Virus record (IMG/VR): IMGVR_UViG_3300006750_000018
Coordinates: 1-44,135 of that record
Strand: one strand, 5' to 3'
DNA from: a virus
DNA length: 44,135 nt
Below are positions 16,239-44,135 of this stretch, in pieces. How positions within the stretch are numbered: the first letter of the stretch is position 1; every line of letters begins with the position of its first letter. The notes beneath the pieces were generated by a model, which saw only the letters and a program-made list of their open reading frames with translations, made no database searches and was not told the origin of the DNA. A program made the translations under genes and the position numbers.

Positions 16239-16262
16239 TCAATTGGCTACCAAAAGTTCCAG

Positions 16263-16668
16263 TGGAGATGGAGGGATTCGAACCCTCGTCTTGCTCATTG
16301 CCTATCGTACCTATCCTACACGCTTAGTTTATTCTTTTATTCTCGGACTTACCTTTATAGAATAAACAACCATCCAGAAGTCCTACTCATAATATTATTT
16401 AACCACCTTAATGATATTGGTGCGGTCGATTTGTCTGATGACATCTCATACACTAAAGACACAAACCTTAAATTCTTTAGGTGAGATGGAGCTTTAGTCG
16501 TAATCTAATTACGCTACCGCTACAGTTGACTCCTGACGGATAAGACCGAGAGTTGTCATGGTATCTAATACGTTGCCGATTAGAAGTGTAAACTATTTTT
16601 ACAAGGTTAGTTTATCCTCGACGTGCTGATATCAATCAAACTAATGTCAATCAATTCCAGTCATCCCC
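16263..16668 (-). ncRNA. ssrA: tmRNA (transfer-messenger RNA)
   Basis: About 406 nt on the - strand. The 5' end GGGGATG pairs fully with the 3' CATCTCC (one G-U) to form the acceptor stem; discriminator A, CCA not encoded. The T arm GAGGG-TTCGAAT-CCCTC and the conserved CTAAGCGTGTAG (compare E. coli CTAAGCATGTAG) are present. PK1 is recognisable: GAGG/CCTT and TAAACTA/TAGTTTA. Eleven nt after PK1, as in E. coli, comes the resume codon GGC, opening a tag that starts GNVLDT and ends QESTVAVA, 22 codons, then TAA. tmRNA with SmpB rescues stalled ribosomes and tags nascent proteins for Clp proteolysis. Own host-type promoter and boxA-like leader. Confidence 0.92.
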
Positions 16669-16672
16669 ATAA

Positions 16673-16683
16673 TTTCAAAGAAC
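16673..16683 (-). promoter_or_regulatory. boxA-like leader GTTCTTTGAAA of tmRNA
   Basis: Lies 4 nt upstream of the mature tmRNA 5' end. The same 11 nt occur at 44087-44097. GTTCTTTGA is the Bacteroidota rRNA boxA-type antitermination sequence. Confidence 0.6.
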
Positions 16684-16720: not shown

Positions 16721-16735
16721 TTTATAAACAAATTG

Positions 16736-16800
16736 TGGACCCTATCGGAACCGAACCCTCCTCTTGTTCGACCTTAAAATTGGTATGTACCTACCTTTCG
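16736..16800 (-). tRNA. tRNA-like remnant
   Basis: On the - strand GAGGGTTCGGTTCC resembles the 5' side and loop of a T arm, and CATACC/GGTCG a distorted anticodon arm, but the T stem does not close and no acceptor stem can be paired. Best read as a decayed tRNA; may be nothing. Confidence 0.25.
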
Positions 16801-16810
16801 AAAAAATTAG

Positions 16811-17597: not shown

Positions 17598-17645
17598 CCC
17601 AGAGTGGGGGTCGAACCCACAAGGTCATTCGACCACCGATTAATG
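17598..17645 (-). tRNA. tRNA 3'-half fragment
   Basis: Perfect T arm GTGGG-TTCGACC-CCCAC followed by TCTGGGT as acceptor 3' strand, but only ~45 nt separate it from tRNA-Leu, with a GGTC-GAAT-GACC hairpin and no D arm or 5' acceptor strand. A truncated tRNA or a recombination scar. Confidence 0.35.
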
Positions 17646-17730
17646 TACACCAAGCAGGGGTCGAACCTGCACTCCCTCAATGAGAATCAGAGCTTAAATC
17701 TGACGCGTCTACCAATTCCGCCATTGGTGC
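17646..17730 (-). tRNA. tRNA-Leu (UAA)
   Basis: 85 nt class II tRNA. Acceptor GCACCAA/TTGGTGT, D arm with GGTAGACGC, anticodon stem TCAGA/TCTGA with loop TTTAAGC (anticodon TAA), long variable arm, T arm GCAGG-TTCGACC-CCTGC, discriminator A, no CCA. First RNA behind the promoter at 17737. Confidence 0.94.
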
Positions 17731-43572: not shown

Positions 43573-43615
43573 AAAAAAGGGGTGACCTACTGTTGAGAAT
43601 AGTCACCCCTTTTTT
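43573..43615. terminator. Strong terminator of the large - strand RNA
   Basis: A6, GGGGTGAC, 15-nt loop, GTCACCCC, T6. Lies between the ncRNA unit and the promoter of the CAP gene. Confidence 0.92.
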
Positions 43616-44086
43616 CACGAATCTTACATAGTAGTAGCAAACTTTACTGTTTACAAGCCCATCATTAAAAGGGACTACTTTAATATACAAGTTTGCACAT
43701 CGTGTTGTCTATCTTTGATTTTATTTGAAGCCTCAAATGGTGACCGACACTCACCCAACACGCTCTCCTGTCTTTTACGTTTTTTTTAGGGAAACGAATC
43801 GTCCTTGGAACTGACCTTGCATAAAAAACCCCCACTCTCAACACTATAAAGGTAAGTAAAATAATTTACACTACCAAATGTTTTTAAAAAAAAAATAGCT
43901 TTGTTTATCTCACCCATATAAATAAAAACCATAACTTTCATCCTTTCCTAAGAAAGGAGACCAATATTTTTAGGTTATTATTTACGTTCCCAATGTCGTT
44001 TTCCTTTCGGTACTGACTATTTGTGAATGCTGGAATAACTTAGTCTGACTTCCACTTAGTGTCAGATACTATCTTAATTTCAATAC

Positions 44087-44097
44087 TTTCAAAGAAC
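44087..44097 (-). promoter_or_regulatory. boxA-like leader GTTCTTTGAAA
   Basis: Identical to the 11 nt just upstream of tmRNA (16673-16683); in Bacteroidota this sequence type marks transcripts of stable RNAs. Confidence 0.6.
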
Positions 44098-44104
44098 TAT
44101 GGTA

Positions 44105-44135
44105 CAAATATACAAAAGATATTTTAAAGTACCAA
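44105..44135 (-). promoter_or_regulatory. Host-type promoter TTG-N20-TATATTTG at window end
   Basis: On the - strand: TTG at the window edge, 20 nt, TATATTTG (44112-44105). The upstream base of the -33 element is outside the window. Confidence 0.65.

Follow-up and report, generated by a model that had tools for sequence, protein, structure and literature searches.

The 5′ part of a minus-strand unit at the right end of a 44,135-nucleotide stretch of phage DNA (the window) is almost certainly a real conserved RNA, and it is very probably absent from described families, Rfam being the set that we tested. Its helices P1, P2, P4 and P5 and a pseudoknot are established by covariation, and homology and the lack of a shared ORF are also shown computationally. 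We consider it rather likely that this conserved RNA is a stable RNA that acts in trans. An earlier note on the same DNA, which had read the whole unit as one large structured RNA of ~525 nt, saw a real, unclassified RNA gene but drew its extent too large.

The window is a 44-kb piece of a large T4-like phage, with genes for the major head protein (phrog_138), terminase (phrog_2) and portal (phrog_213), and it also encodes tRNAs and a tmRNA. As the earlier note had claimed, the flagged unit starts with a host-type promoter and the same GTTCTTTGAAA leader as the tmRNA, in exact copies at both sites, and it ends in a strong terminator hairpin (Table 1). The −33 box, TTTGG, that matches TATATTTG starts at the window edge and on the adjoining contig, G042, and the tmRNA, like many stable-RNA genes of phages, is preceded by the same promoter layout. 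The window contains two exact copies of GTTCTTTGAAA and no more, one in the flagged unit and the other as the tmRNA leader (16673–16683, −), and the adjoining 191-kb contig G042 holds only two copies, both at the flagged-RNA locus. A dedicated gene of the stable-RNA type, with a promoter and leader like those of the tmRNA, is supported.

Table 1. Features of the flagged unit and of the conserved RNA within it, in window coordinates
Feature	Position	Strand	Basis or remark
−7 promoter box TATATTTG (Bacteroidota-type)	44105..44112	−	read in sequence; precedes GTTCTTTGAAA leader
boxA-like leader GTTCTTTGAAA	44087..44097	−	exact copy, as before tmRNA
Conserved structured RNA, P1 to P1′	43892..44075	−	R1 model 146 bits (training member); covariation
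P1 5′ strand AAGATAG	44069..44075	−	pairs with 43898–43892 (CTATTTT)
Hairpin P2 (TCTGAC/GTCAGA)	44044..44066	−	80% of cells paired
Pseudoknot	44031..44054	−	P2 loop 44054–44050 (TGGAA) with 44035–44031 (TTCCA)
P3 5′ strand TCAC	44023..44026	−	proposed partner GTGA 43913–43910
Variable hairpin P4 (GTC/GAC base)	43995..44017	−	68% of cells paired; covariation in 3 pairs
Variable hairpin P5 (GTAAATAA/TTATTTAT base)	43918..43985	−	68% of cells paired; covariation in 6 of 8 pairs
Near-invariant motif ATGGGTGAGATAAACAAAGC	43898..43917	−	GGTGAGATA-CAA-GC kept in 14 of 14
T tract after P1′	43884..43895	−	possible end of the 5′ RNA; putative terminator
Second promoter-like site (TTTG ... TACCTTTA)	43838..43884	−	resembles phage intergenic DNA near tRNAs
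3′ part of flagged unit	43616..43840	−	separate stretch; neither structure nor conservation evident
Strong terminator hairpin AAAAAAGGGGTGAC/GTCACCCCTTTTTT	43573..43615	−	14-bp stem + 4 bp, T run

The conserved element accounts for only ~184 nt of the flagged unit, and it is very unlikely that the unit gives a single 525-nt GOLLD/ROOL-like structured RNA. Such a transcript would run from the strong 5′ promoter to the strong 3′ terminator, and the whole stretch does fold slightly better than its shuffles (z = −1.8). However, the unusual folding that had been attributed to all 525 nt is seen in neither portion: the 3′ part without the terminator folds at chance level (z = +0.13), and the single-sequence free energy of the 5′ part is unremarkable and not above chance (z = −0.11). 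Long-range pairing, which had also been proposed, is indeed predicted from the single sequence, but it joins the leader with the 3′ part and differs from the covarying P1 helix. What supports a structure is comparison among homologues, rather than folding energy, and this support is confined to 44075–43892. Homologues stop at P1′, and a search for homologues of the 3′ part (43840–43616) found none. Because an internal promoter-like site (43884–43838) has a long T tract just before it, two transcripts are likely, and the 3′ part probably belongs to the second. In the crAss-like phage cr111_1, intergenic DNA that lies ~100 nt ahead of a tRNA shares 83% identity with this site, which also matches DNA between tRNAs in the crAss-like phage cr116_1. 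The suggested likeness to GOLLD and ROOL gains nothing from Rfam 15, where no match was found, or from the size of the element (137–184 nt).

Thirteen other phage records contain homologues of the conserved element (44075–43892), giving 14 distinct full-length sequences plus near-duplicates, ~137–184 nt long. The 3′ probe, ATGGGTGAGATAAANAAAG, is a motif common to the window RNA and a 588-nt unit on G042 (described below), and it returned true homologues; an independent 5′-side probe, ATTCCNGCATTCACAAA, added five members, whose 3′ motifs are slightly different (AATGC, AAGGC, ATTCAAAGC). Since members were recovered via a probe from the opposite end, conservation is supported at each end. Two further scans added no members, so the set is near exhaustion for these motifs, and a scan with the leader plus GTATTG gave matches to coding sequence or other RNAs and no new members. 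The R1 model scores the members at 95–146 bits, but these are its own training set, and therefore covariation, rather than the R1 E-values, is the evidence. Weak R1 matches in L334, L340, L344 and L309 proved to be coding-type sequence caught by the search motif.

The carriers appear to be several large-phage lineages, at least some of them infecting Bacteroidota. Phages L266 and L270 have the same capsid protein at 65–66% identity and a strong match to a terminase family, to which L338/L345 and L348/L377 give only weak matches; on these weak matches, the RNA is probably spread over more than one phage lineage. R1 gave no match in 395 Bacteroidota genomes (a reduced candidate list, searched without a positive control), blastn of two members found none against named phages, and no homologue of the RNA was found around 80 homologous major-capsid loci. 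In the closest relative, L004 (85% capsid identity), only 57 nt lie between the genes that flank the RNA site, and a scan with neighboring proteins found no relative. Two related contigs (L426 and L427; contigs G071 and G057) both carry a terminase-like frame with one internal TGA.

Covariation among the homologues of the 5′ part was evident in both alignments made. An unfitted MAFFT alignment had 76% of pair cells standard (60 ± 2 shuffled) and a covariation score of 0.415 vs 0.166 shuffled. The model-fitted alignment, which leans towards structure and has 15 rows including a partial copy of the window sequence, had 86% of pair cells paired (63 ± 2 shuffled) and a score of 0.531 vs 0.157 shuffled, which fell to 0.07–0.13 when the partners were slid. 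P1 was paired in 99% of cells, with six of its seven pairs covarying and changing on both sides, and all six pairs of P2 vary on both sides. The P2 loop has the consensus AAGNGGWA, in which NGGWA pairs with a downstream UWCCN to form the pseudoknot; this was paired in 100% of cells, and two of its five pairs covary (A-U/U-A/G-C and A-U/U-A). After the pseudoknot come GCauUCACAAA, P4, a GGGAA-type joint, P5 and the near-invariant 3′ motif AUGGGUGAGAUAAACAAAGC. P3 (UCAC/GUGA) can always pair and never varies, and it is unproven by covariation.

The RNA does not appear to be coding. No sense ORF is common to the homologues, and the longest sense frames of the flagged stretch, 51 and 54 aa, are not credible, in keeping with what the earlier note had seen. 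It is extremely improbable that the conserved motif marks a short translated ORF, whether MGEINKA (ATG GGT GAG ATA AAC AAA GC) or the 51-aa frame. Although the motif starts with ATG in 13 of the 14 members, L338 has ATA for ATG, and several frames stop early, for example at GCT TAA in L269 and L271. The third positions of GGT, GAG and ATA are invariant and so without synonymous variation, and the distances that separate the two conserved motifs are not divisible by three. Codon-level conservation was looked for and not found.

Nor did the RNA match any family tested. With all of Rfam 15, cmscan gave no match at the flagged locus, either at gathering score or at E up to 10, and neither the tmRNA and tRNA covariance models nor ARAGORN matched the conserved RNA. 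The group I intron (Rfam Intron_gpI) was not found at the RNA; such introns lie elsewhere in L268 and L269. On the T4 stable-RNA region, with filters off, R1 gave chance-level scores and nothing above 9.5 bits, and our searches of the published literature turned up no account of such an RNA. The RNA family is very probably new, being related to no family tested; its broad kind, phage stable RNAs of unassigned function, is already known. The earlier suggestion of a possible new RNA class is thus strengthened for the 5′ part, which is absent from Rfam 15 and covaries in 14 distinct sequences.

The genomic context of the members is varied. In L253 the RNA gene stands alone, with a promoter 12 nt upstream and a U-tract, and the next gene is convergent. 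A tmRNA stands directly before the RNA in L271 and a tRNA-Gln directly after it in L357, the RNA of L261 is 1 kb from a tmRNA, and the window copy has another promoter-like site and the strong terminator downstream. A nearby promoter was found in 3 of the 14 members and the boxA-like leader only in the window copy, and for about half of the members the next ORF downstream is within 90 nt; these points, together with the invariance of P3 and the chance-level fold of the single sequence, weaken the trans reading. In phages with the RNA just before an ORF, it may have a cis role. As a general account, a riboswitch-like or other cis-regulatory element for the next gene seems unlikely. Like riboswitch aptamers, the RNA combines a pseudoknot and near-invariant junctions with a P1 of variable sequence, and approximately half of the members end no more than 90 nt before a downstream start codon. 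Unlike riboswitch aptamers, it has no consistent downstream gene: only in L338/L343 are the first downstream genes related, so that consistent linkage to a regulated gene was not found, and in three members what follows is a convergent gene (L253), a tRNA (L357) or the intervening promoter-like site and terminator (the window).

We also considered a self-cleaving or catalytic RNA, for example one processing phage transcripts between genes or beside tRNAs, and judge it improbable. The architecture is ribozyme-like (a pseudoknot, a branched core and near-invariant strands), and the RNA is intergenic, on its neighbors’ strand in many members and flush with a tmRNA (L271) or tRNA (L357). However, no Rfam ribozyme matched, the RNA is longer than the known small self-cleaving classes, and the copies in the window and L253 have their own promoter and no neighbor to process.

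Among these readings, we lean slightly towards the 5′ part being the gene for a conserved pseudoknotted phage RNA, ~140–200 nt long, that acts in trans on a conserved host partner. In the window phage, transcription would start at the host-type promoter, and the gene would have a boxA-like leader such as those at untranslated stable RNAs (tmRNA, tRNA). The RNA would fold so that P1, P2 with its pseudoknot, and P3 form a compact core, P4 and P5 being enclosed by P3, and the near-invariant strands UUCCNGCauUCACAAA and AUGGGUGAGAUAAACAAAGC would be presented in trans to the host partner. The likeliest partner may be the translation apparatus or RNA polymerase, a guess based on the tmRNA/tRNA-type leader and on direct adjacency to such genes in some phages. 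We give even odds to the reading that several large-phage lineages share a new class of stable, pseudoknotted RNA, which either targets the host translation or transcription machinery in trans or is a new ribozyme, and that some of these phages express it in the manner of an rRNA or tmRNA gene. Near-invariant strands and a covarying pseudoknot across phage lineages mean that the RNA must have a specific role, and if its target is the host ribosome, RNA polymerase or a defense system, it would represent a new phage route to cell takeover. Its small size should make transcription, probing and structure solution easy.

Several known phage RNAs invite comparison. T4 rnaC (139 nt) and rnaD (119 nt; AF158101) lie beside the T4 tRNA cluster and are annotated without function. 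Like them, the conserved RNA is a small, putatively stable RNA of a T4-like phage, of similar size and encoded with tRNAs; unlike them, it belongs to a family whose R1 model matches neither, and no motif is known in common. GOLLD and ROOL are also phage- or prophage-encoded structured RNAs of unassigned function, often near tRNA genes, but they are several times longer (659 nt for ROOL env-120 and more than 800 nt for many GOLLD RNAs) (PMC12286853), and the conserved RNA is Rfam-negative. With the tmRNA of the same phage (RF00023, window 16260–16668), it shares the promoter type and the GTTCTTTGAAA leader, but the fold differs and there is no tmRNA match at the conserved-RNA locus.

Viral contigs were scanned for TATATTTG-N4-9-GTTCTTTGAAA, with counts that come from simple rules and are rough. 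Among at least 128 promoter-leader sites, at least 69 precede a tmRNA-type 5′ end and at least 16 precede a tRNA within 40 nt, and others lie ahead of tRNA-Leu-like genes with an interruption, a CRISPR-like array, several unclassified RNAs and some stretches that appear to be coding. The E. coli boxA is TGCTCTTTAACA, and the kinds of genes that the sites precede fit GTTCTTTGAAA being a boxA-like antitermination leader. The GTTCTTTGAAA motif was not found in the 243 nt upstream of 16S in the single 16S contig. The promoter plus GTTCTTTGAAA is a practical tag for untranslated phage RNA genes; it retrieved tmRNAs, tRNA clusters, the CRISPR-like array and several further unclassified RNAs.

Contig G042 (190,908 bp) starts with 123 bases identical to window 44013–44135, and its next genes are homologues of the capsid-gene neighbors in L004. 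From this overlap and the L004-like gene order, the window and G042 very likely adjoin in one phage. The upstream unit on G042, ~588 nt (L225:130–717, −), has the same promoter and leader as the window RNA, no Rfam match, a long-range helix of ~15 bp (UGAUAAGACUACCAA/UUGGUAGUUUUAUCA) and a fold z of −2.16; it is the larger RNA candidate of the locus and lies outside the window. Its last 49 nt share 92% identity with the window RNA across the 3′ motif, T tract and promoter element, and because of this likeness the locus looks like a tandem of RNA units.

Other leader-borne sequences were also observed. L107, L189 (near 9637, +), L198 and L211 share another unclassified RNA, roughly at least 200 nt long, with a closing helix (e.g. 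AACUACUUG/CAAGUAGUU), motifs of the ACAAAUA and GUAAGAUA types, and AUUCCG...CGGACAG ahead of the 3′ strand; it matched neither Rfam nor R1, and a tRNA follows it in at least two. Long non-coding-looking, Rfam-negative stretches follow the promoter and leader in L110/L186, L122/L126, L183, L191, L193 and L128. In L194 (7851–8253, +), and also in L197, the promoter and GTTCTTTGAAA stand before a CRISPR-like array in a viral contig, that of L194 having six repeats of ~37 nt spaced 71–76 nt. In L138, L139, L145, L147 and L153, the leader is followed by a tRNA-Leu-like 5′ half with an intron-like interruption, which in several of them is an ORF. The window itself has tRNA 3′-half-like fragments with TTCGA-type arms that form no complete tRNA, beside intact tRNA genes, at 17600–17650 and 16725–16810 (−).
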